The notes below the pieces were generated by a model. It was not told the DNA's origin and searched no databases. It saw only the letters and a program-made list of their open reading frames with translations. A program made the translations under genes and the position numbers. Of a stretch of 49,249 bases of DNA, positions 4,259 to 49,249 are shown in pieces. This DNA comes from a virus. How positions within the stretch are numbered: the stretch's first letter is position 1; every line of letters begins with the position of its first letter. Where the stretch lies: IMG/VR virus record IMGVR_UViG_3300032516_000043, positions 1 to 49,249 of that record; one strand, written 5' to 3'.

Positions 4259-5317
4259 ATGCAAAACGAAACGCCTACTCTCATTGAAAAACAGTTGGAA
4301 GAATTGAAATCCGCCGGCGCCAATATATTCTCGGGGCAGGTCCAGGCGCACAAGCCTGGGGAGAAAGGTGCTAACCGCGCCATCCTTGAGAAATGGCTCC
4401 CCGCCTGGATTCGAAACTCCTATCTTAATTTTGAAATAGCCCGCAATTCTCCTGGACTTTCTTTCTTAAAGTCCTCGGCAAAGGGCCTGCCCGCCGTCGT
4501 CGTTGGAATCGGCCCAAGCCTCGACCATACGGTCGAACGGCTCATCAATTTCCAAAGGAACTGCATCATTATCTCAACCGACGCCGCTCTCCGCCCCCTG
4601 ACTGCCCGAAAAATTAAACCCCACATCGTTGTCAATGTGGATGCAAGCGACGTTCAGGAAGTTCTCTTCAAGGACGTCGACACCCATGACATTGTGCTGG
4701 TTGCCCCGACTTCGACACATCCGTGGACGCTGGCGGCGTGGAAAGGCCCGATCATTTTTTTCAACATGGTTCACCCTGGGATCGAGTTCATGGACATTGT
4801 TCTGCCGACCGTTTTCCCATGCCAGGGCGAAATGTGTGTGCATGGGACTGTCGGCAATACGGCGACCCTCCTGGCTTACCAGATGGGATGCAAACAGATC
4901 ATTGCCATCGGCATGGACCTCTGCTATGGGAAGGTCGGTGAAACCTGGAAGTACCGGTGCCAGGATTTTGAATGGTTCGACGACGGCGCGGAACATTTTT
5001 TCTGGAAACCGAAGGAATGCAGGATCCTTTACGACAACGATTTGCGGCTTAAACAGGCGTACGAGATTGAGGTCAAAGGCAAAAAGTTTATGGTGGACCC
5101 GGAACTTGAATTATATAGGAAGTCACTTTTTGAACTTGTCGGTTCTTTTGTCAACGTTTCTTTCACGGACTGTTCCGAAGGCGGAATCCTCGGGGCGGCA
5201 GGGTTTTATACCCAGAAATTCGAAGACGCTTTGCTGGAGCACTGCGGTCGACAAATTCAAGAGGGAGAGTCAGTTGTATTGCACCTCCCTAAAATCCTCC
5301 AAAGGAGAGAACAATGA
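4259..5317 (+). CDS. Maf/DUF115-like motility accessory factor type glycosyltransferase
   Basis: 352 residues, ATG at 4259 preceded by AAAGGAGAG. The central segment has VVVGIGPSLDHTVERL (about residues 80-95), then IISTDAALRPLTARKIKP and a VNVD strand. This G-x-GPSL...Tnga/Tdaal..L...gi.PhivV.vD pattern is diagnostic of the DUF115/Maf (6-hydroxymethylpterin pyrophosphokinase-like) family, whose bacterial members transfer nonulosonic acids to flagellin. A second conserved part (GNTATLLAYQMGCKQIIAIG, about residue 198) follows. It overlaps the next glycosyltransferase gene by ATGA. Most likely it helps glycosylate a phage structural protein, given its place right after the tail tube gene; the actual acceptor is unknown. 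Confidence 0.75.
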   Translation: MQNETPTLIEKQLEELKSAGANIFSGQVQAHKPGEKGANRAILEKWLPAWIRNSYLNFEIARNSPGLSFLKSSAKGLPAVVVGIGPSLDHTVERLINFQRNCIIISTDAALRPLTARKIKPHIVVNVDASDVQEVLFKDVDTHDIVLVAPTSTHPWTLAAWKGPIIFFNMVHPGIEFMDIVLPTVFPCQGEMCVHGTVGNTATLLAYQMGCKQIIAIGMDLCYGKVGETWKYRCQDFEWFDDGAEHFFWKPKECRILYDNDLRLKQAYEIEVKGKKFMVDPELELYRKSLFELVGSFVNVSFTDCSEGGILGAAGFYTQKFEDALLEHCGRQIQEGESVVLHLPKILQRREQ

Positions 5318-22166: not shown

Positions 22167-22355
22167 ATGGAAGACATATCTGGAACTTCAAAAAGTCTTT
22201 GTCCACAATGCCGACAATTTTACGATGCAAAAACTGGACGAAAAATACCGTCCCTTTCACACATCACAGTTTCAATTATTGAGGAAAAGCATCTTTGCCG
22301 AGACTGTGCTGAAGAACGTGAAGCATGGGGCGCGAACGGCCCGGAGGCCACATGA
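22167..22355 (+). CDS. Small putative zinc-binding protein
   Basis: 62 residues, start set by TGGAGG. Two CxxC pairs (CPQC at residues 12-15 and CRDC near residues 44-47) are spaced as in a zinc ribbon. The stop overlaps the endolysin start (ATGA). Function unknown. Confidence 0.55.
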   Translation: MEDISGTSKSLCPQCRQFYDAKTGRKIPSLSHITVSIIEEKHLCRDCAEEREAWGANGPEAT

Positions 22356-22840
22356 GAGAAGTCGAACTTTTGCGACCAGATGGTGAAAAATTTCCGATAG
22401 GAAAAGCGGGTTTTTTGGCGTGGGGAAAAGCATGGGGATGGCACTACGACGACCACAACCAATGGGTACGCGGACAGGTCAACGGTGTTGGCCAGCATGA
22501 GGGCTACGACATTGAGGTGCCGGAGGGCACCCCCCTGATGGCACCGTGTTCGGGCGTTATTTCGATTGTCGGGGCGGATCACAGGTGGCCGTCGTTCGGG
22601 TTGATGGTTCAGATCATCTACAGCCCAACGCGCCCTTACACCCTAATCAATCTCGCTCACTTTTCACGGGTGGATGTTGAGCAAGGGCACCTTGTGGAGG
22701 CCGGGTCTACCGTTTTGGGGTTGTCTGGACACACTGGGAATACTTTTGGCCCGCACCTCCACATCGGGGCGCGGGGCGAATATGGTGAACCACTTCCTAT
22801 TAAATGGCTTCAAAGGGAGGCGTGCTATGGAAGGGTTTGA
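22352..22840 (+). CDS. M23-family peptidoglycan endopeptidase (endolysin)
   Basis: 162 residues from ATG 22352, with GGAGG just upstream. LytM/M23 zinc motifs are present: GQHEGYDIEVPEGTP (HxxxD, the first His and Asp ligands) and GNTFGPHLHIG (HxH with the second zinc His); APCSGVI and VEAGSTVLGLSGHTG are the usual strands between them. It would cleave peptide cross-bridges in the host cell wall at lysis. There is no signal peptide, so it needs the holin for export. Neighbours are a holin candidate and a DUF1353 protein; it overlaps the latter by 14 bp. Confidence 0.88.
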   Translation: MREVELLRPDGEKFPIGKAGFLAWGKAWGWHYDDHNQWVRGQVNGVGQHEGYDIEVPEGTPLMAPCSGVISIVGADHRWPSFGLMVQIIYSPTRPYTLINLAHFSRVDVEQGHLVEAGSTVLGLSGHTGNTFGPHLHIGARGEYGEPLPIKWLQREACYGRV

Positions 22841-23207
22841 CAAAGAAATTCTGGCAACCCGGAGCGCGGATGGCCGCCACGTTACTACGCTTGAGGAGTT
22901 TTCCTATACCACGAAGGCGGGCGAGGTCATTATCGTTCCTGCAGGCACACAGTCGGACGGCGCAAGCACCCCCCGAATCTTCTGGCGATTCCTTCCTCCT
23001 TTCGGTCCGTATTGGCTCCCCGCCCTTTTACATGATTTCCTCTACCAGAAGGGGCTTTTCCCACAGCCAAAATGCGACCAAATTTTTAAGGAAGCCATGC
23101 TCTTCAATAAAGTCAACAGCTTAAAAGCCTGGGTTATATATACCGGCGTCCGAATAGGCGGTTGGGTGGCCTACGGAAATTACAGAAAAAAGGAGAAACA
23201 AAAATGA
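22827..23207 (+). CDS. DUF1353 family protein
   Basis: 126 residues. The DUF1353 signature is clear: VPAGTQSDGASTPRIFWRF, PPFGPYWLPALLHDFLYQKG, then a helix with EAMLFN and AWVIYTGVRIGGW. It contains the conserved HD pair (residues near 69-70) typical of the family. The family is common in phages next to lysis genes and its function is not settled. It overlaps the endolysin gene at its start and the following gene at its stop (ATGA). Confidence 0.85.
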   Translation: MEGFDKEILATRSADGRHVTTLEEFSYTTKAGEVIIVPAGTQSDGASTPRIFWRFLPPFGPYWLPALLHDFLYQKGLFPQPKCDQIFKEAMLFNKVNSLKAWVIYTGVRIGGWVAYGNYRKKEKQK

Positions 23208-23590
23208 AAAAGTTACTTGCATTGATAACGTTGTTGCTTCCGATGGTTGCGCAAGCCAAGCCGGTGGAATTCAAGTTGTCCGATAAGACGACTTTCATTC
23301 TTCCGCTTCAAGTTGTGCAAGCCGTTCAGTTGTACTGCCCAGAGGAAGGGAAGGGATTTCCTGGGTTAGAGACTGTGCTTGTGGAACGAAAGTCCTGGAG
23401 GTTATCAGCTGGCGCGGCACCGGTCCTTGGAACGGATGTCAACGTTCCCTTCGTCTCCGTATCAACGAGGCTTTCGCCGGTCATCTTCGACACCTCCGAT
23501 AATACGATTTACTTCGGAGTCTGGGCAGGGAAACCTTCCAACAAACGACACGCTGTGTTCGGTTTGTCGGCGGGGATTCCTCTTTGGTGA
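23204..23590 (+). CDS. Small secreted protein
   Basis: 128 residues from ATG 23204, preceded by AAAGGAG; an upstream in-frame start at 23162 would bury the signal. N-terminal MKKLLALITLLLPMVAQA is a Sec signal peptide with a standard AQA cleavage site at residue 18. The mature beta-rich domain of about 110 residues resembles nothing I can name. It is the last gene of the structural/lysis block, and a terminator-like hairpin follows within about 20 bp. Confidence 0.6.
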   Translation: MKKLLALITLLLPMVAQAKPVEFKLSDKTTFILPLQVVQAVQLYCPEEGKGFPGLETVLVERKSWRLSAGAAPVLGTDVNVPFVSVSTRLSPVIFDTSDNTIYFGVWAGKPSNKRHAVFGLSAGIPLW

Positions 23591-23603
23591 ATTGATATCT
23601 AAT

Positions 23604-23693
23604 AAGGGCCCAATCGCTCCCCCGCCCGACTGAACTATCTCGGCTAGCTTCAGGACGGCGGGGGGGGCCTTACCTCTCTTTTCTCTTCCTTTT
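23604..23693 (+). terminator. Putative intrinsic terminator at the end of the late operon
   Basis: Nested pairings: 23604-23607 with 23668-23671, 23619-23626 with 23657-23664 (CCCCCGCC/GGCGGGGG, 8 bp), and 23630-23634 with 23649-23653 in the loop. A pyrimidine/T-rich tract (23674-23693) follows. The stem is GC-rich but the loop is long, so efficiency is uncertain. Confidence 0.6.
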
Positions 23694-23730
23694 AATAAAA
23701 AAAAATATTGATTGGGCGAAGAAACCACCC
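23688..23730 (+). repeat. Left arm of a long-range inverted repeat bracketing the early module
   Basis: This A-rich tract followed by GATTGGGCGAAGA (23710-23722) and an ACC-rich end matches the reverse complement of 40779-40822, with a 13-bp identical core and the poly-A plus CTTTTAAT-like flank also shared. Confidence 0.75.
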
Positions 23731-24009
23731 TTAACACCCCTCGTTATCGGATCTATCCACCTCTCAAATCGTCGGTGAAAAGGCAAATAAACGCAAAATT
23801 AGAGGTTTATTTTGGAGTTCTAAAATATATTTTCTCAGACGGAAAACATCTGAAAAACGATGATTTGCACTGTATTTGAGGCGTAAAATATTTTTCAAAA
23901 TGAAGTCTCTAAATAAGTTGAATATCATCGCTTTTCAAGCGAATATAAATTCCGAATTTTTTATTTTCAAAAAAGCTCACAAAGTCATCAGTTTTCACGA
24001 TAAAAAAAC

Positions 24010-24040
24010 TTTTGCAATTTTCGCAAAAAAGAGTTATAAT
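24010..24040 (+). promoter_or_regulatory. Sigma70 early promoter with overlapping inverted repeat
   Basis: The -35 box TTGCAA (24012-24017) and the perfect -10 box TATAAT (24035-24040) are 17 bp apart. Transcription would start near 24047 and give a leader of about 38 nt before the ATG at 24085. TTTTGC (24010-24015) and GCAAAA (24023-24028), separated by 7 bp, form an inverted repeat over the -35 box, a likely repressor or activator site. Confidence 0.82.
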
Positions 24041-24084
24041 ACGGGTGTAGCAAGTTTAGGAAGTATAAATCCGGAGGTGCGAAA

Positions 24085-24423
24085 ATGAAAACCACTCAAG
24101 AAAAATGGAATGACTTGGTTGCCAAGTTCCACAAAGAATCTGGACTGGTCAAGCTCGTCACGAAAGAGCTAGGGACGTACGAAGGCAAGAAGACCTTTGG
24201 CACGGTTCGCTTCGAGCTAATTCTGGACGTCTCGGATCAACCCTTCCTCGACCATGAAACCTACAAAAAGGGAAACGCCTACGTGTATTTTTCCCAGAAA
24301 ATGTATGACTTCTTGACGGACGCTGTTGAAGAAACCTTCGGTGCAGAGGTGGGTTGGAACAATACGAGAACAACTGGTTGGGTTTTTTTCAACTTGAAAA
24401 GCGAAGTGAAGGTGTTGTCGTGA
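24085..24423 (+). CDS. First early protein, unknown function
   Basis: 112 residues; strong ribosome binding site GGAGGTG at 24073-24079. This is the first gene after the early promoter. It reads as a compact alpha/beta protein (MKTTQEKWNDLVAKFHKESG helix, then strands RFELILDV and VGWNNTRTTGWVFFNL) and matches no family I know. First-transcribed phage genes are often host take-over or antidefence factors. Its ribosome binding site is perfectly complementary over 13 nt to 24533-24545 downstream. Confidence 0.65.
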   Translation: MKTTQEKWNDLVAKFHKESGLVKLVTKELGTYEGKKTFGTVRFELILDVSDQPFLDHETYKKGNAYVYFSQKMYDFLTDAVEETFGAEVGWNNTRTTGWVFFNLKSEVKVLS

Positions 24424-24599
24424 AAACAACAACTTCCTTCCTTTCAAGAGCGCGGGTCTGTGCGATGAGGAAAACCCGAAATGGGCTTTCTTTCCTTAAA
24501 AAGAACGGCTTCATAAAGAATCTTCCCCGAAGTTCGCACCTCCGGGGACCTTCCCGCCGTCGGCCTTCCTCCTCCCAGGAGGCACCGGCGGCGCGGTAA
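24420..24599 (+). CDS. Doubtful Arg/Ser-rich peptide overlapping a structured segment
   Basis: A 59-codon frame from GTG 24420 (GTGA overlap with the previous stop) gives a basic peptide rich in Arg, Ser and Pro (ending SSSQEAPAAR). The latter half lies in GC-rich hairpins and looks like translation of structured RNA rather than protein sequence. No good ribosome binding site. I list it because it fills the gap, but an RNA function for this stretch is more likely. Confidence 0.22.
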   Translation: MKTTTSFLSRARVCAMRKTRNGLSFLKKNGFIKNLPRSSHLRGPSRRRPSSSQEAPAAR

Positions 24600-24640
24600 G
24601 GCGAGGCTCGTGTCCGCCCCCTCCACGTGGGGAGCCTTGG
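24520..24640 (+). ncRNA. Candidate structured RNA with a loop antisense to nearby ribosome binding sites
   Basis: Three GC-rich hairpins in series: H1 24524-24529/24543-24548 (6 bp); H2 24555-24563/24585-24593 (9 bp with one G-U) topped by 24568-24572/24578-24582; H3 24604-24609/24632-24637. TTCGCACCTCCGG, in the loop and 3' arm of H1 (24533-24545), is exactly complementary to the ribosome binding site of the 24085 gene (24071-24083), to 10 nt of that for 24686 (24676-24685) and 11 nt of that for 24801 (24787-24797). It may work in cis on the early transcript or be released as a small RNA. No known RNA family recognised. Confidence 0.5.
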
Positions 24641-24685
24641 GTTGTTTGCTGAGAACGGACCATTCGAAACAAGACGAGGTGCGAA

Positions 24686-25030
24686 ATGCGAATAGTATTG
24701 TTGACCTTGATGGCGATAGGGCTTCAAGGATGTGGGTGGCTCAGTCAGAATATTCAGTACTGGCCGAGTTGCCCGCCATGCGAAAACCGGAGGTGCGCAG
24801 ATGAATGGAATAATCGTATCCTTAAAAAAGAAGTTCAACCAGATCGCGCTGGTGGTTTGGGTATTCCCAACCGGCGAGGTCCGCTCAGCGTCATCTTTGA
24901 CGGCCAAGGAACAGGAATGGTTCAGTTCCCAGAAACCACCAACCAGTTTCGCGAGTCAATTGCTGGCAGTCCGTTATCTCCAGTTGAAAGGCTGGAAGAT
25001 CCAAACGACCAGAGATTGGCAAGAAGCTGA
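24686..25030 (+). CDS. Putative lipoprotein (3' part uncertain)
   Basis: 114 residues. The first 20 residues are a lipoprotein signal: MRIVLLTLMAIGLQGCGW with lipobox LQGC at residues 13-16. Preceded by GAGGTGCGAA. The next part has CPPC and RRC. From codon 39 onward the frame overlaps the gene at 24801 in a different frame, and that part (Pro/Gly/Arg-rich) looks like a shadow, so the true product may be shorter than the frame suggests or the two may be overprinted. It would be anchored in the host envelope, perhaps for superinfection exclusion. Confidence 0.45.
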   Translation: MRIVLLTLMAIGLQGCGWLSQNIQYWPSCPPCENRRCADEWNNRILKKEVQPDRAGGLGIPNRRGPLSVIFDGQGTGMVQFPETTNQFRESIAGSPLSPVERLEDPNDQRLARS

Positions 25031-25037
25031 GGTCTGA
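24801..25037 (+). CDS. Small hypothetical protein
   Basis: 78 residues, with CCGGAGGTGCG at 24787-24797 just upstream. It reads like a folded protein (NGIIVSLKKKFNQIALVVWV, then a Ser-rich turn and LLAVRYLQLKGWKI). It lies inside the 3' half of the lipoprotein frame but in another frame. Function unknown. Its ribosome binding site is one of three that match the H1 loop. Confidence 0.6.
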   Translation: MNGIIVSLKKKFNQIALVVWVFPTGEVRSASSLTAKEQEWFSSQKPPTSFASQLLAVRYLQLKGWKIQTTRDWQEAEV

Positions 25038-25040
25038 ATC

Positions 25041-25625
25041 ATGGGACTGAAAATAAAGAAAGCAAGTACGCCGGTTCCTTCCGGTTTAATTGCAGGAGAG
25101 GAAAACCCCCGTATGCGGTGTGGCCATAAGGAATCAAGTAGAACTGAGGATGGTGGTTGTTGGAATTGTCATGCGACACGGCTTAGGAAATTGTGGTATC
25201 CATCCAAAGCCGATAAACGACGACAGGAGAAAACAATGGAAATCAAGCTGGATAAAGAAGCAGTGTCAGTGAAGCCGGTCAAGGTTGTAGAAAAGTCCGA
25301 GAAGAAAGTGGCAGTCAAATCTGAAGGTCCGGTCAAACGGATCGAGGGAAAGACTCTCAAAATGGGAGTCAATCAGACTTGGGTGCATCTTTTCCAGAAA
25401 AACGAAACGCTCCCTGGTGCGAAGCGTCTCGGGGATATGGAAATTAGCGAGTTCTTGAAGAAAGAATTCCCTGATCGCCACTCCAGAGTCTTCGATGCGG
25501 TCCCGACTGTTCGCTCCCGCTACAATCGGGGACTTTTGACCCAGGGCGAAAAACCTAAGACGCAATCCAATCCTTACAACAAGGAGGCCGCGCCGGTCAA
25601 GTCGCCTGTCAAATCCAAAAAATAA
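25041..25625 (+). CDS. Hypothetical Lys-rich protein with a probable internal start
   Basis: 194 residues. Residues 25-45 hold a possible zinc knuckle (RCGHKES ... GGCWNCH). Residues 66-194 are Lys/Val/Pro rich and include a folded-looking part (WVHLFQKNETLPGAKRLGD ... FLKKEFPDRHSRVFDAV) with a basic tail KSPVKSKK. The outer start at 25041 has a weak site (GAGG about 10 bp upstream), while an in-frame ATG at 25236 has AGGAG at 25225-25229, so a 129-residue short form probably exists. Function unknown; DNA-binding is possible from the charge. Confidence 0.55.
   Translation: MGLKIKKASTPVPSGLIAGEENPRMRCGHKESSRTEDGGCWNCHATRLRKLWYPSKADKRRQEKTMEIKLDKEAVSVKPVKVVEKSEKKVAVKSEGPVKRIEGKTLKMGVNQTWVHLFQKNETLPGAKRLGDMEISEFLKKEFPDRHSRVFDAVPTVRSRYNRGLLTQGEKPKTQSNPYNKEAAPVKSPVKSKK
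25236..25625 (+). promoter_or_regulatory. Internal start site giving a shorter product of the 25041 gene
   Basis: ATG 25236 is in frame and preceded by AGGAG at 25225-25229, a better site than that for 25041. It would make a 129-residue protein lacking the Cys-rich N-terminus. Confidence 0.45.
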
Positions 25626-25630
25626 ATGCC

Positions 25631-25670
25631 CAAGAGCGCGGCGGGATTCCTAAATTCTTCCGCGCTCTTG
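25631..25670 (+). terminator. Perfect 11-bp hairpin between early genes
   Basis: CAAGAGCGCGG at 25631-25641 pairs fully with 25660-25670; the 18-nt loop is AT-rich. The following bases (TTGCGT) hold no T-run, so it is more likely an attenuator, RNase processing site or weak terminator than a full stop. Confidence 0.5.
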
Positions 25671-25687
25671 TTGCGTAAAGTCAAAAT

Positions 25688-27085
25688 ATGAAAAAGAATA
25701 CTGAACTTGAACGAAAAGAGCGGAGCCTTTTCCCTCATCAGGAACGCGCCCTTGAATATTGTCGGTCAACCAAGCATCCGGCACTGTTCATGGAAATGCG
25801 GCTGGGGAAAACCAAGGTCATGATCGAATGGCTTCGACGCGCGACTGGCAAGATCTTGGTTGTCGCGCCACTTTCCGTGGTTCGCTCCTGGGATGAGGAA
25901 CTCCAGATGGAAGGGGAATCCCGCCCAGTTCTACTTTTGGGAGCATCTGGTGAGAAGCTAGCCTCATTTAGTGCTGGCCTGGAAGCAGGAGCCAAGTGGT
26001 TTTTGGTCAATTTTGAAGGAATAACGCGCTGTCAACAACTCGTTTCGAATTACCGGTGGGACGCCATCATCGTGGATGAGTCAACCCGCCTTAAGAACCC
26101 CAAAGCCCAGGTCACCAAAACGTTGATCCAGTACCGCGCCAACGCTGACCGGCGGGCCATTCTTTCTGGCAACCCCGCGCCAGAGGGGCCGCTTGACTAC
26201 TGCGAACAGTTCAGGTTTTTGCATGGGAGCTTTTTAGGGATTGATTCTTACTGGAAGTTTCGAAACGTTGCCTTCTTTCCGGTGGGGCGCGGTTTTGAAT
26301 GGCTCATAAAAAAACCTTTCAAAGAAAAGATAAAATATTTTATCCAAAAATTCACGTTTACCTGCAAGAGAGCGGACGTCGGTCTTGCCAACCAGAAATT
26401 TTACGAAAAGCGAATGGTTCAAATGGAACCGGAGCAGAAGAAATTGATGAAAAAGTTAGAGTCGGATTTCGTTTTGGAACTTCCCTCTGGGGAAGAAAAA
26501 CAAACAATCTGGGTTCCCGTCAAATTGGCGTGGATGGCTCGGCTTGCAGGAGGATACGTCGATGGAAAAAAGTGGTTTGAAGGAAAGTTCGAAGAACTTC
26601 GAAGTCTTTTGCTTGGAGAGCTTAAGGAAGAACAGGTCGTTGTTTGGTTCCGATTTAACTCGGAAATTCACCATGCGCTCAAGTCATACGGATCATTGGG
26701 TAAAGATTTTGCTTTTATCGATGGAACCGTTGCTGAGGATGATCGCGCCGTCGTTCGAAAGAATTTTATGGAAAAAAGAATACGCGTCCTTTTCCTCCAG
26801 TCAAAAGTTGGCATGTTTGGGTTGGATCTTTCTTGCGCTAGCACAGCGATTTACTTCTCCAACAACTACTCCTCCGAAATAAGGACTCAGTCTGAAGACC
26901 GGATTGAACACCCTCTCAAAAAGGAACCTCTCTTGATTATCGACTTAGTCACTGAAGGATCTTTAGACGAAGACGCCGTCAAGGCACTCCGGCGAAAAAA
27001 GAAAGAGAGCGACAGCTACCTAATCCGTGAAATCGCAAATTCTATAAAGGAGCGAAACCGTGCAAAGATCGATCATAGCAATTGA
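25688..27085 (+). CDS. SNF2-like superfamily 2 helicase
   Basis: 465 residues. Motifs in order: LFPHQERALEYC (Q-like motif, residue 14), EMRLGKTK (motif I/Walker A, residues 36-43), VVAPLSVVRSW (Ia), IIVDEST (motif II, DES at 130-132), ILSGNPAPEGP (III), GMFGLDLSCASTAIYFSN (V) and QSEDRIEH (VI, a QxxxR-type helix). This is the compact phage SNF2/DEAD-like helicase often found with replication and recombination genes. It probably remodels or unwinds DNA using ATP. It overlaps the RuvC-like gene by 26 bp. Confidence 0.88.
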   Translation: MKKNTELERKERSLFPHQERALEYCRSTKHPALFMEMRLGKTKVMIEWLRRATGKILVVAPLSVVRSWDEELQMEGESRPVLLLGASGEKLASFSAGLEAGAKWFLVNFEGITRCQQLVSNYRWDAIIVDESTRLKNPKAQVTKTLIQYRANADRRAILSGNPAPEGPLDYCEQFRFLHGSFLGIDSYWKFRNVAFFPVGRGFEWLIKKPFKEKIKYFIQKFTFTCKRADVGLANQKFYEKRMVQMEPEQKKLMKKLESDFVLELPSGEEKQTIWVPVKLAWMARLAGGYVDGKKWFEGKFEELRSLLLGELKEEQVVVWFRFNSEIHHALKSYGSLGKDFAFIDGTVAEDDRAVVRKNFMEKRIRVLFLQSKVGMFGLDLSCASTAIYFSNNYSSEIRTQSEDRIEHPLKKEPLLIIDLVTEGSLDEDAVKALRRKKKESDSYLIREIANSIKERNRAKIDHSN

Positions 27086-27551
27086 TCCAGGGATTGGTTC
27101 GACCGGCTGGGCATATTGGGAAGCCAGAGCGGGACGAGTTCCGACAGCGGTCGGCCTGGTACGTGAAGGATCTGACGGTGAGTGGCAGGACAGAGCCTTT
27201 TATCAGGCGCGGCGATTAATGAATGAGCTGCCGAACCGGAACGATGTAGATTTTTACTGTGAGATGCCGATTTTCTTCGCAGGCACGACAGGCGGTATTG
27301 CTTCGGTAGGGACTGGTTCGCTCCAGAAATTGTGCTTCTACATCGGTTGTGTTCGTGCATTGACAGCGTTTTTTTATAAATATTCTGACTTTCATCCTGT
27401 TCTTGTTCGGGACTGGAAAGGTCAGCTTCCGAAAAAGATTGTCAACAAGAGGATTGTTCAATTGTTAGGTGCGGCGAATTGTGAAGATTTCAAAGTTGAT
27501 ATATGGGACGCAGTAGGAATCGGCCTCTGGGCTAAAGGAGTTTTCAAATGA
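27060..27551 (+). CDS. RuvC-like Holliday junction resolvase
   Basis: 163 residues from GTG 27060, preceded by AAAGGAG. RNase H-fold acidic residues are seen in order: D9 in IIAIDPGIGSTGWA, E68 in FYCEMPIF, and D147/D150 in VDIWDAVGIGLW; a Lys-rich segment (LPKKIVNKR) precedes the last pair. This is the RuvC/phage resolvase layout. It would cut branched DNA before packaging or in recombination. Overlaps both neighbours. Confidence 0.82.
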   Translation: MQRSIIAIDPGIGSTGWAYWEARAGRVPTAVGLVREGSDGEWQDRAFYQARRLMNELPNRNDVDFYCEMPIFFAGTTGGIASVGTGSLQKLCFYIGCVRALTAFFYKYSDFHPVLVRDWKGQLPKKIVNKRIVQLLGAANCEDFKVDIWDAVGIGLWAKGVFK

Positions 27552-28114
27552 ACATTCAGCGCCAGCTGTGGGACGCAATGCTGGGGAGTTATGAGGACTG
27601 TCAATCCTGCGATATAGGAACCTTCGCCAAAAAACATGTCTTCGGGCGCGGGCCGCTTGACTCAAAAATTGTTTTTATAGGTGAGGGCCCAGGCAAGCTT
27701 GAAGACCTTGAGGGAAAGCCTTTCGTTGGACGCGCCGGTCAATTGCTTTCGAAGGCGATTAAAGCGACGGGGAGCAAGCTCAATTGCTTTTACACAAATC
27801 TCGTACTCTGTCGCCCGTGCGACCGGCTTGGCGGGCCAAACCGTCCGCCGACGGAACAGGAGGTCAACAATTGCAAAGAGCGTTTGAGAGTGACTCTCCG
27901 AACGATAAATCCTCGGGTCGTTGTTTTGCTTGGGCGAACGGCCAGAATGGCTTTGGGAAACGAAAAGCCTTTGCTTGGAGATCCTATGTTTGCAAAACTG
28001 AAGGTTTTCACGATGGAACATCCGGCGTTTATCCTTCGTGTGGGCGGAACAAAGAGTCCCGCTTTTCCGATTTATGTTCAAAAAATAAAGGAGGCATTAA
28101 ATGCCGCAGTTTAA
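27548..28114 (+). CDS. Family 4-type uracil-DNA glycosylase
   Basis: 188 residues. GEGPG (residues 45-49) followed by LEDLEGKPFVGRAGQLL, the family 4 motif 1, and EHPAFILR near the C-terminus, motif 2. Four Fe-S cysteines fit: C18 and C21 (CQSC), then LCRPC and NNC in the CRP...NRxPT-x-E-x-x-x-C part typical of the family. It removes uracil from DNA. Located between the resolvase and the recombination nuclease, it is translated after AAAGGAG at 27534. Phages more often inhibit this activity than encode it. Confidence 0.88.
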   Translation: MNIQRQLWDAMLGSYEDCQSCDIGTFAKKHVFGRGPLDSKIVFIGEGPGKLEDLEGKPFVGRAGQLLSKAIKATGSKLNCFYTNLVLCRPCDRLGGPNRPPTEQEVNNCKERLRVTLRTINPRVVVLLGRTARMALGNEKPLLGDPMFAKLKVFTMEHPAFILRVGGTKSPAFPIYVQKIKEALNAAV

Positions 28115-29048
28115 CCCGCTCAAAGAAGGAATAAGTCAATCGTTGTTGTGTGGTTTTTTGAAATGCCGACAGATGTCAAAGATAAACCTTGAAGGGTGGA
28201 CTCCTCTCAAGACAGCAAGCGTACTTCAATTCGGAGAGATGGCTCATGGCGTCTTGGAAAGACTCTACACTGAGGATCGTAAGAAACCGCCAACAACGGA
28301 AGAGGTGTTGAGGTTCATCAAAGAACAAGTCGACATCTGGGAAAAGTCCCCACGGGGCCAGCGCGCGAGTGGGGAAGATGCGGAGCAATTGGAGATGAAC
28401 ACCGCTCTTCTAGAAGCTGTCCTGCCGTCCTACTTCAAGTTTTGGGGCAAGGAAGACTTCGGTGGATTGAAGTGGCTGGCGCTTGAAAAGGAATTCGAGA
28501 TTGACTTCCAGGGTTACAAACTCCGGGGGAAAATCGACGGCGTCTACAACAAGGGCGGGATCTGGGTGTTCGAAACCAAGACTAAAGGGCGAATTGAGGA
28601 GCAAAATATCGCTGAACTTTTGGCTTTTGACTTTCAGTCGGATTACTACACCCTGGCCTGCGAAAAGATGTACGGAAAAATGCCTGTCGGAATGCGGTAT
28701 AACATCATCCGTCGTCCCGGACAAAAGCTTGGGAAGAAAGAAAACCTGTCCAGTTTCAAGACGAGGGTCGAGGACGAGGTCTTGGCGGATCCGAAACACT
28801 ACTTCATTCGGTATCGCGTCGACAAAACCAAAAAGGATCTGGACATCTTCAAAAAGGAACTGCGGCAGATCCTGGACGAATTCAGAGACTGGGTCGAGGG
28901 GAAACTTCCAACGTACAAGAATCCAGTTTCCTGTATGGACAAATACGGGGCTTGCCGGTATCTCCGAATTTGCGCTTCAGGAAACTACACCGGATTTTAC
29001 AAACGCCAGCATCTGTTTTCAGAATTAACAAACAAAAAGGAGGCATGA
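28101..29048 (+). CDS. Cas4/RecB-like PD-(D/E)XK nuclease
   Basis: 315 residues. The nuclease core is GKIDGVYNKGGIWVFETKTKG (about residues 139-159), with D in KIDGV and E-T-K in FETKTK, preceded by a conserved His/Glu region LQFGEMAHGVLERL. Cys in LLCGFLKC near the start and CMDKYGACRYLRIC near the end would hold a 4Fe-4S cluster as in Cas4/AddB-type nucleases. Likely the 5'-3' exonuclease of the phage recombination system; the next two genes are a Sak4-like ATPase and an SSB, a standard trio. Confidence 0.85.
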   Translation: MPQFNPLKEGISQSLLCGFLKCRQMSKINLEGWTPLKTASVLQFGEMAHGVLERLYTEDRKKPPTTEEVLRFIKEQVDIWEKSPRGQRASGEDAEQLEMNTALLEAVLPSYFKFWGKEDFGGLKWLALEKEFEIDFQGYKLRGKIDGVYNKGGIWVFETKTKGRIEEQNIAELLAFDFQSDYYTLACEKMYGKMPVGMRYNIIRRPGQKLGKKENLSSFKTRVEDEVLADPKHYFIRYRVDKTKKDLDIFKKELRQILDEFRDWVEGKLPTYKNPVSCMDKYGACRYLRICASGNYTGFYKRQHLFSELTNKKEA

Positions 29049-29049
29049 A

Positions 29050-29844
29050 ATGAAACTTGAGACCACGAAACGGTCGGCTCTTGCTTTTCCGGCCAAGAAG
29101 TCAATCCCACGCCAGGACCTCGGGGAGTTTAGTATCCTGATTTTCGGGCGAGAAAAGATCGGCAAGACGAGCTTCGCGGCGGAGTTCGAAGACGCGCTAT
29201 TTCTTATGTGTGAACCAGGAGGACGCGATCTCGAGATATACCAGAAGGAAGTAGTCGACTGGAAGGAGTTCAAGGGGTATGTGGAACTTCTGGAGCAAGA
29301 CCGTAGTTCCTTCCGGACGGTCGTGGTCGATACGGCCGATCGGTGTTTCAAGATGTGCGAAGAATACATGCTAAAGAAAATGGTAATCCAGCACGCTTCC
29401 GACGAGGACTACGGCAAGGGTTGGTCGATGATCCGCGATGAGTTCGCCTCGGTTGTCCTCCGGTTACTCAAGACGGAGCGGGGCGTGATATTTACGAGCC
29501 ACGCAATGGAGCGCGAGATCAAAGCACGCGACGGGAGAAAGTACGATCGCGTCGTTCCAACGATGCCGAAGCAAGCGAGGGAAATTCTGGAACCGATCGT
29601 CGACATCTGGGGGTACATGGAATATGATCCCCAGGAAGGGCGGACGCTCCGCTTGCGTGGCGATTCACAGGTGGCCTGTGGACACCGGCTTCAAAACCAT
29701 TTCATCGGGGTTGAAGCTGTTCCTATGGGCAAGACGGCTAAACAAGCTTACGAAAATTTCGTGAGAGCCTTTAACAATGACCTCACGGATAAACCTTCCG
29801 CTCCTGCAGGGAAGGAATCGAAGTTGATAATCAGGAGGAAGTAG
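29050..29844 (+). CDS. Sak4-like RecA-type ATPase (single-strand annealing/recombinase)
   Basis: 264 residues. Walker A FGREKIGKTSF (about residues 32-42) and Walker B RTVVVDTADR (D94) with a following switch region IFTSHAMEREIK (about residues 146-157). This small AAA_24/Sak4 layout is a phage single-strand recombinase group that works with an SSB. It sits between the Cas4-like nuclease and the DUF669-like SSB. The C-terminus ends KLIIRRK, close to the SSB terminus KMVVRRK. Confidence 0.82.
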   Translation: MKLETTKRSALAFPAKKSIPRQDLGEFSILIFGREKIGKTSFAAEFEDALFLMCEPGGRDLEIYQKEVVDWKEFKGYVELLEQDRSSFRTVVVDTADRCFKMCEEYMLKKMVIQHASDEDYGKGWSMIRDEFASVVLRLLKTERGVIFTSHAMEREIKARDGRKYDRVVPTMPKQAREILEPIVDIWGYMEYDPQEGRTLRLRGDSQVACGHRLQNHFIGVEAVPMGKTAKQAYENFVRAFNNDLTDKPSAPAGKESKLIIRRK

Positions 29845-29846
29845 CC

Positions 29847-30605
29847 ATGGCTAAAGAGCAATTCAAACTGTCGAAGTCAGTGTTATCCAAGGCCTGGAAA
29901 GACGCGCACCAAGCCAAGGAGGAGTTCAAGGGCGGGCAAGGGACGGTATTCGAAGACGGTCGGTACGCCGTCGCCTTGACGGATGCTGAGCGCGGGGAAA
30001 GCAAGGCCTCCGGGCGGGATCAGGTGATGTTCGAGTTCACCTTCCTGGACGGAGATTACAAGGGCCAGACCAAGAGGGACTACAACGGTCTCGACCGCGC
30101 CGAAAGTATCCCCTACCTTATCGCGAAGATCGAAGCGATGGGCGGAGAAGCTCCGGAGGATATCAATGATCTTGAGGACTCTCTCAAGGCGTTGGTCAAG
30201 AAACGTCCTCAAATCCGGGTCGTTCTGAAAACCAAGAACGATTACCAGAACGTGTACGTTGACCGTCTCCTCGAAGAAGGAGATGAATCCTCGGAGCTTC
30301 CGACGGTAGAAACTCCCGTTGAGGAACCGGTGGTTGAGCGTTCGCGTGTTTCCAAGGAAAAGCCCGAACCTGCCGAACAGTCTGAATCCGATGAGGCTGT
30401 TGACATCGAGGTCGGGATGCCGGTTCGTTGCATGGAAGGAGAGGATGAAGTCGGGACTGGAACGATTCTTTCCATCAACGAAGAAGACGCCGAAGTCACC
30501 GTCAAGGTGGAAAACGGGAGAAAGCAAATCTTCCCCGCGGCGGATCTCCGCCTCATCGAGAAACCGGAACCTCCGAAAAAGAAGATGGTGGTTCGCCGGA
30601 AATAA
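29847..30605 (+). CDS. DUF669-like single-stranded DNA-binding protein with C-terminal SH3-like domain
   Basis: 252 residues. Residues 25-140 fit the DUF669 OB-fold pattern (VFEDGRYAVALTDAERGESKASGRDQVMFEFT ... split here: GRYAVALTDAER, GRDQVMFEFTFLDGDYKGQ, and IRVVLKTKNDYQNVYVDRLL). A Glu/Pro-rich linker (145-185) follows, then an SH3/KOW-like domain (EVGMPVRCMEGEDEVGTGT, about 190-235) and a basic tail KKKMVVRRK. It would coat ssDNA during replication and recombination. The tail matches that of the recombinase before it, which suggests a shared binding partner. Confidence 0.78.
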   Translation: MAKEQFKLSKSVLSKAWKDAHQAKEEFKGGQGTVFEDGRYAVALTDAERGESKASGRDQVMFEFTFLDGDYKGQTKRDYNGLDRAESIPYLIAKIEAMGGEAPEDINDLEDSLKALVKKRPQIRVVLKTKNDYQNVYVDRLLEEGDESSELPTVETPVEEPVVERSRVSKEKPEPAEQSESDEAVDIEVGMPVRCMEGEDEVGTGTILSINEEDAEVTVKVENGRKQIFPAADLRLIEKPEPPKKKMVVRRK

Positions 30606-48560: not shown

Positions 48561-49249
48561 ATGAAAGGAATCGCAGTCAGAGACCTTTTTGAGTCCTTCG
48601 CCCGCGACCACACGGATCCGAAAGTTGCGAACCGTGCGTTCAGCAATAAGGTGATGGGTCTCATCAAGGAAAAGAAAATCAGCATCTCGGATGTTTCCCT
48701 CAAGGAACTCTGGGAAGGCCTGGTGGTTGCCCGTGGGATGGAAGAGTCCGCCTCTTCCACCGCGTTCCCGACGATCGCGGGGGAGATTATCTCCAGCGTC
48801 ATGATCGCCGGTTACGATCAGTTCCCGAAACAAGGTCTTAGCCTTGTTCGCGTGGTTCCCTCGAAACAGAAGATCAGCCAGATTGTCGGCTGGCAGGGGA
48901 TTGGCAAGCTGAGTCGTTCGAGCGAGGTCCGCGAGAAGGAAGACTACCCCGCGATCACCCCGCCCGAGGAGAAGGAAATTCGTATTAAGAATAAAAAGAA
49001 CGGTCTGGTGGTTGCCGTGACGAAAGAGGCGATCTTCTTTGACCGGACCGGCCAGATCATGGGCGAGGCCTCGATGGTGGGCGCGGAACTGGCCCGCTGG
49101 CAGGACGAGGTCATCATGTGCGCCCTCATCGACCTCGATGCGACGGCCTACGACCTCGGCGACATGTTCAGCGGGGGCAACTCGAACTCCTACTCCGGCG
49201 CGGCCACCGCGCTCGGCACGGCGGCGTTCGAAACCATGCTGACGTACTA
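48561..49249 (+). CDS. Major capsid protein, N-terminal part (continues at base 1)
   Basis: ATG 48561 with AAGGAGG upstream. Residues 1-45 are helical and charged (ARDHTDPKVANRAFSNKVMG), a candidate delta-like region; there is no obvious protease site. The gene is cut by the window end at 49249, with the last 229 bases repeated at the left end. Joined, it gives a 361-residue shell protein ending at 626. Confidence 0.85.
   Translation, partial: MKGIAVRDLFESFARDHTDPKVANRAFSNKVMGLIKEKKISISDVSLKELWEGLVVARGMEESASSTAFPTIAGEIISSVMIAGYDQFPKQGLSLVRVVPSKQKISQIVGWQGIGKLSRSSEVREKEDYPAITPPEEKEIRIKNKKNGLVVAVTKEAIFFDRTGQIMGEASMVGAELARWQDEVIMCALIDLDATAYDLGDMFSGGNSNSYSGAATALGTAAFETMLTY
49021..49249. repeat. 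Terminal overlap repeat, right copy
   Basis: Second copy of the 229-bp overlap, with G at 49122 where the left copy has A at 102. The two bases probably represent a polymorphism in the sampled phage population or a read error. Confidence 0.9.

Follow-up and report, generated by a model that had tools for sequence, protein, structure and literature searches.

The C4 antisense RNA of phages P1 and P7 arises by processing of a longer transcript and presents loops that pair with the target mRNA, one of these pairings partly occluding ribosome binding sites (RBSs), and Rfam includes a C4 family (PMC5320573). The outcome is a trans-acting repression of Ant synthesis (PMC8546580). In Vibrio cholerae, OppZ and CarZ are RNAs from the interior or the end of an operon that pair with that same operon and inhibit its translation (PMC7398697). 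Phages also carry minimal HDV-like and theta ribozymes: the tRNA-associated theta ribozymes lie at the 3′ ends of tRNAs, and ribozyme matches away from tRNAs have been reported without an assigned function (PMC10879173). In the open-licence literature we found no description of HDV-like ribozymes with phage sRNAs or 3′UTRs, or between phage genes.

Here we present a locus of an uncultured phage, taken from positions 1-49,249 of the IMG/VR record IMGVR_UViG_3300032516_000043. This whole stretch of 49,249 nucleotides is called the window, and coordinates are those of the window unless a relative is named. Judging from the sequences of the locus and its relatives, we give a probability of about 0.6 to the reading that it encodes a phage riboregulator which sequesters the phage's own early RBSs, owes its 3′ end to a ribozyme, and lowers early translation. 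A phage anti-RBS RNA, a shared extended RBS motif and a 3′ end made by an HDV-like ribozyme were not found together in the literature searched.

Results

The phage and its relatives

The window carries a direct terminal repeat of 229 bp (1-229 and 49021-49249, identical at 228 of 229 positions), which makes it probable that the window is an entire phage genome, assembled as a circle. A search of 50,697 phage records gave no near or distant DNA match to it, and the best helicase matches from cultured phages, among the matches listed, are just 26-28% identical. The whole element described below is present in two IMG/VR contigs, IMGVR_UViG_3300021440_000040 (L002/L007) and IMGVR_UViG_3300044766_000195 (L005/L008), whose helicases are 66% and 62% identical, respectively, to that of the window. 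Two more distant helicase relatives, IMGVR_UViG_3300001338_000004 (L024) and IMGVR_UViG_3300028840_006267 (L029), also enter the comparison.

Searching with a covariance model built on the complete element gave no copies beyond the three in the window, L002 and L008; the structure that RNAalifold derived automatically for this model differs from the one proposed here, and for that reason the automatic fold is given no weight. No additional copy of the element came from scans with the bare core CCCCTCCACGTGGGG or with only the hairpin; what they did show was a ribozyme array on another contig, described below. A two-part pattern scan of genome contigs returned 37 matches, mostly in GC-rich genomes, and since none of them gave a ribozyme under the strict descriptor, they were used as a chance control.

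An anti-RBS sequence within the early operon

The early operon and the RBSs of its first three genes are laid out as follows.

24012..24040, + strand: sigma-70-like promoter of the early operon (TTGCAA-17-TATAAT), from a consensus scan with 10/12 matches; position only
24071..24083, + strand: target 1, extended RBS CCGGAGGTGCGAA of gene 24085-24423, a 13-nt exact complement of 24533-24545
24085..24423, + strand: first early gene, 112 aa, without Pfam match
24676..24685, + strand: target 2, RBS GAGGTGCGAA of gene 24686, a 10-nt exact match
24686..25030, + strand: second early gene, with a lipobox-like N-terminus and an out-of-frame overlap with the next gene
24787..24797, + strand: target 3, RBS CCGGAGGTGCG of gene 24801, an 11-nt exact match
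24801..25037, + strand: third early gene, 78 aa; its L002 homologue also has the extended RBS

The transcript of this operon would start near 24047. The N-terminus of gene 24686 reads MRIVLLTLMAIGLQGC, its overlap with gene 24801 exceeds 200 nt, and its counterpart in L002 is a lipoprotein-like ORF that is much shorter. An ORF on the minus strand (24389-24907) was judged spurious. The sequence that is antisense to the three RBSs lies after the first gene, in the first of two hairpins.

24533..24545, + strand: anti-RBS sequence UUCGCACCUCCGG, exactly complementary to the RBSs and conserved in relatives
24524..24548, + strand: hairpin 1, stem UCCCCG/CGGGGA (6 pairs) with the 13-nt loop AAGUUCGCACCUC, from the fold, conserved in L002 and L008
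24549..24601, + strand: hairpin 2, a long GC-rich stem from the fold, ending 1 nt before a predicted cleavage site

The 13-mer TTCGCACCTCCGG occurs once in the window, at 24533, and its reverse complement once, at 24071-24083, against an order-2 Markov expectation of 0.0008 copies in the window; CGCACCTCC has a second window copy at 22752, within a coding region. On the gene strand, the three copies of GAGGTGCG in the 49,249-base window are all RBSs of early genes 1-3, and at each of these sites the start codon follows 10 or 11 bases after the motif begins. The duplex of the anti-RBS with target 1 has a calculated energy of -28.0 kcal/mol, and the capacity of the loop to pair with these sites can be read directly from the letters.

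A preliminary description of this DNA had reported that 24533-24545 is the exact reverse complement of the RBS of the first early gene at 24071-24083, with exact 10-nt and 11-nt matches at the next two genes, and that the antisense letters occupy the loop and 3′ arm of a stable GC-rich hairpin; each of these points holds, the hairpin being the fold at 24524-24548, with the anti-RBS in the 13-nt loop and 3′ arm of hairpin 1. It had also counted two further strong hairpins, one of which stands as hairpin 2, while the other (24603-24638) is made of P1 and P3 of a predicted self-cleaving ribozyme that had been overlooked and by which the 3′ end of the RNA should be set.

Hairpins 1 and 2 together (24515-24602) fold at -44.9 kcal/mol with z = -4.2, and the larger fold of 24420-24700 is unexceptional (z = -0.76). 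The stem pairs of hairpin 1 are kept in L002 and L008 with one double change, so that covariation within the stem is slight; hairpin 2 has an equivalent in both relatives, different in sequence. An ORF runs through the hairpins in all three phages (24420-24599 in the window, 4420-4722 in L002, and from an ATG near 3863 in L008) and ends within a few bases of the predicted cleavage site in each, possibly by chance. A coding explanation for the conserved anti-RBS was considered and rejected: the sequence falls in different reading frames in the three ORFs, and its conservation is thus not at the protein level.

Joint change of loop and RBSs in relatives

In L002 and L008 the hairpin is kept, and four RBSs of the early operon in each phage carry the extended motif CGGAGGUGCG at Shine-Dalgarno (SD) distance, with one antisense copy each, in the hairpin. 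The matches span 12, 12, 11 and 10 nt in L002 and 13, 12, 11 and 11 nt in L008. One U-to-C change in the L002 anti-RBS shortens its pairing, and the L002 RBS at 4790, GGAGGTACA, matches it poorly.

A sequence-independent scan, which asked only for one antisense site matching at least three RBSs, placed L024 and L029 among its top scores. L024 has the RBS GGAGGCAGCC three times and a single antisense copy, CGGCTGCCTCCG (CGGCUGCCUCCG), which sits in a long intergenic stem structure (z = -5.7). The third addressed RBS of L024 (4576-4591) is itself part of a small predicted hairpin, ACAGGAGGCAGCCUGU, that would mask the SD as well. L029 has the RBS GGAGGUGUGG (GGAGGTGTGG) four times and a single antisense copy, TCCCACACCTCCAT (UCCCACACCUCCAU), which is in a hairpin just 5′ of the helicase, with a z of -1.8 that makes the fold itself unremarkable. 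Scans of the relatives' contigs for the cores (G001, 45 kb; G002, 16 kb; G003, 55 kb; G004, 16 kb) showed that every gene-strand copy is either an early RBS or the lone antisense site. Cognate duplexes between loops and early RBSs average -24 to -28 kcal/mol, whereas L024 or L029 paired with the other classes mostly give -12 to -18 kcal/mol, rising to -21 to -24 where GGAGGUG is shared; the cognate and swapped energies indicate that it is the pairing that has been kept, not the letters. Comparable anti-RBS sequences are absent from most of the helicase relatives scanned (about 40 loci), which makes the device patchy.

The preliminary description had proposed a riboregulator pairing with the early RBSs and had set covariation between loop and sites in related phages as a test in advance. 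Such covariation was found in two distant relatives with different letters, and this co-change in L024 and L029 supports the proposal as far as sequence comparison can. The same description had offered a chance resemblance as its alternative: the three RBSs would simply look alike and include an SD core. On such a view the hairpin would be an unrelated GC-rich structure or a part of the ribozyme leader. SD cores alone do produce many 9-nt antisense matches in phage DNA, and some GC-rich loci have high three-target scores by chance; among all the loci scanned these phages stand at the top of that score, but a GC-rich palindromic chance site (L102) outscores L024. The longest antisense words, however, have expected counts of 0.00002 to about 0.01 per genome, L024 being statistically the weakest case with a 12-mer expected 0.011 times per genome and many genomes examined. 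Since both partners are conserved in two relatives and the antisense letters change together with the RBS letters in two further lineages, we regard coincidence as very improbable.

Stoperators of mycobacteriophage L5 are short asymmetric sites near start codons. Sites of this kind occur in phages, and the 13-bp motif could by the same token be an operator or stoperator, a protein site in duplex DNA of which the antisense sequence is just an inverted copy. A duplex site, though, would not predict a rule of orientation, an SD core in all versions or an adjoining ribozyme. The 18 direct copies are each found at SD distance before a start codon, whereas the five inverted ones occur elsewhere than at RBSs, within hairpin loops or next to them, and this explanation therefore appears highly improbable to us.

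A predicted HDV-like ribozyme downstream of the hairpins

Directly after hairpin 2, the window can be folded, both by hand and by a strict descriptor, into a small ribozyme.

24603..24660, + strand: predicted minimal (P4-less) HDV-like self-cleaving ribozyme, from a sub-threshold match to Rfam RF02682, the strict descriptor and P1/P2 covariation
24603-24609/24632-24638, + strand: P1, GAGGCUC/GAGCCUU; the pair next to the cut is G.U
24612-24616/24656-24660, + strand: P2 pseudoknot, GUCCG/CGGAC
24619-24621/24629-24631, + strand: P3, CCC/GGG
L3: UCCACGU
24623-24624/24639-24640, + strand: P1.1, CC/GG
24649, + strand: catalytic C, first position of J4/2, in CUGAG

The catalytic C stands in CAGAG, CCAAG and CUAAG in other ribozyme sequences. 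In the window and its relatives, P2 remains paired with differing letters (GUCCG/CGGAC, AUUCGC/GCGAAU, GGCCAU/AUGGCC), and P1 differs between the window and L002/L008 yet stays paired. Across four ribozymes (those of the window, L002 and L008, plus one in an unrelated contig), both partners have changed in 10 of the 18 pairs and 95.7% of cells are paired. The covariation score of 0.56 compares with 0.05-0.11 when the partners are slid; P1 and P2 covary, and P3 and P1.1 are invariant. Over 1.5 Mb of loci, read on both strands, the strict motif is confined to the elements of the window, L002 and L008 and to contig L084. Descriptors with the catalytic C swapped for A or T had no match in the 1.5 Mb, and a swap to G had no independent match there, all that it gave being the window site in a variant register. 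Rfam family RF02682 (HDV-F-prausnitzii) matches the window end to end at 22.6 bits (E 0.15), below its gathering threshold of 44 bits, and L002 at 19.1 bits, also sub-threshold and end to end; it gave no match in L008, and no Rfam family reached its gathering threshold in the window. Covariation and the specificity of the strict motif make the ribozyme well supported as a fold, from which we infer cleavage, at a site predicted between 24602 and 24603.

No ribozyme was detected in L024 or L029, so release there must differ, or is not needed; the long stem of L024 might suit RNase III, and a host nuclease may act in both phages. This bears on the possibility that the 3′UTR hairpin works only in cis, folding back on RBSs of the same or a neighbouring mRNA and setting the relative translation or stability of the cistrons, with no free trans-acting RNA. 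Loop and targets do share one operon in 5/5 phages, and the want of a releasing ribozyme in L029 and L024 would fit. Against it, the ribozyme of the window's group would sever the loop from the downstream targets, whose motif persists, and one loop matching three or four RBSs is better suited to action in trans; we consider it unlikely that the hairpin acts in cis only.

A ribozyme array in an unrelated contig

The minus strand of IMGVR_UViG_3300043442_000931 (L084; reverse-complement 22250-30054) holds 11 minimal HDV-like ribozymes in about 8 kb. They are mostly intergenic, lying between the stop codon of one gene and the start of the next, and the neighbouring genes include ParB-like and anti-restriction proteins. 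Most of the ribozymes directly follow a short GC-rich stem-loop that ends a few bases before the cleavage site (for example GGGGCTTCGGCCCC AT/GGCACC, with the slash at the cut); a few sites do not conform, or overlap an ORF from the mechanical listing. The array has the look of a polycistronic phage mRNA punctuated by ribozymes. Its geometry of hairpin, cut, ribozyme and next RBS is the same as that of the window, which suggests that a stem-loop plus ribozyme may be a more widespread phage device that separates mRNAs and leaves them with protected 3′ ends.

Such a device could account for the window in terms of mRNA processing only: the ribozyme and hairpin 2 would together split gene 24085 off from the cistrons that follow and give it a capped 3′ end, and the anti-RBS loop would be secondary, or a decoy for host mRNAs with strong SD sequences. 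Most of the 11 intergenic ribozymes follow their stem-loops without a recognised anti-RBS loop, as this would have it. In the window and its relatives, by contrast, the complementarity does not stop at the SD core but takes in phage-specific letters, and it covaries with each phage's own RBSs; it seems quite improbable that processing is the whole function.

Discussion

We favour a riboregulator directed at the phage's own early genes. In this scheme, the minimal HDV-like ribozyme would cut the early-operon transcript co-transcriptionally at the predicted site. The upstream product would end at a defined 3′ position, closed off by hairpin 2, and would display the anti-RBS loop of hairpin 1, its 5′ end being that of the whole mRNA or of a trimmed 3′UTR fragment, and the downstream product would be an mRNA starting with the folded ribozyme and a 5′-OH. 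The loop would then pair over 10-13 bp with the extended early RBSs on both sides of the cut and block binding of the 30S subunit, so that early translation would fall as the RNA accumulates, as negative feedback or as an early shut-off timer. Its capacity to pair with early RBSs on either cleavage product favours action in trans and repression of translation by what would be a discrete, released RNA.

A wider reading is that the shared RBS serves as an address, that one ribozyme-released anti-address RNA shuts all of the addressed genes, and that the two co-evolve between phages; we hold this to be about an even bet. Loop and RBS are simply complementary, which suggests a compact natural design in which one RNA switches off a set of genes. 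If true, this reading would give a biological role to some of the minimal HDV-like ribozymes of phages that are not associated with tRNAs, and it offers a testable job for some of those lying away from tRNAs. The co-change of RBS and anti-RBS is itself a way to find such regulators from sequence only.

Among known systems, the predicted ribozyme shares with theta ribozymes the P4-less fold (P1, P1.1, P2, P3 and a catalytic C first in J4/2), its presence in a phage, and a cleavage, here predicted, 3′ of a structured RNA. That upstream RNA is, unlike the one next to theta ribozymes, a two-hairpin anti-RBS element; tRNA-associated theta ribozymes cleave at most 5 nt from a tRNA 3′ end, and the window has no tRNA. 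The layout of P1, P3, L3 and J4/2 aligns end to end with RF02682 in the window and L002, but P4 is absent, and the family scores sub-threshold in these two and without a match in L008. The nested double pseudoknot of HDV-like ribozymes (P1, P2, P3 and P1.1, with covariation) and their catalytic C at the first position of J4/2 were both found, and its predicted fold places the window ribozyme in the minimal HDV-like group, of which the theta ribozymes are part.

With OppZ and CarZ, the locus would share a logic of negative feedback by an RNA against its own operon, and, in position and complementarity only, it has the own-operon origin and start-site complementarity of a 3′UTR-derived autoregulatory sRNA. 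RNase E frees those RNAs from a bacterial mRNA; here a ribozyme is predicted to effect release and the carrier is a phage, and, unlike OppZ and CarZ, several target RBSs have one extended motif matching the loop. As in C4, a phage RNA from a larger transcript, with processing here predicted from sequence, would turn a loop against RBSs. Host RNase P makes the 5′ end of C4, whereas an HDV-like ribozyme is predicted to make the 3′ end here, and the three stem-loops of C4, with loops a′ and b′, contrast with the one loop here that matches three or four RBSs. No C4 match reached the gathering threshold in the window, and there was no sub-threshold C4 match at 23650-25100. By analogy, the putative RNA would resemble both C4 RNA and 3′UTR-derived autoregulatory sRNAs in its action, and we place it in neither family.
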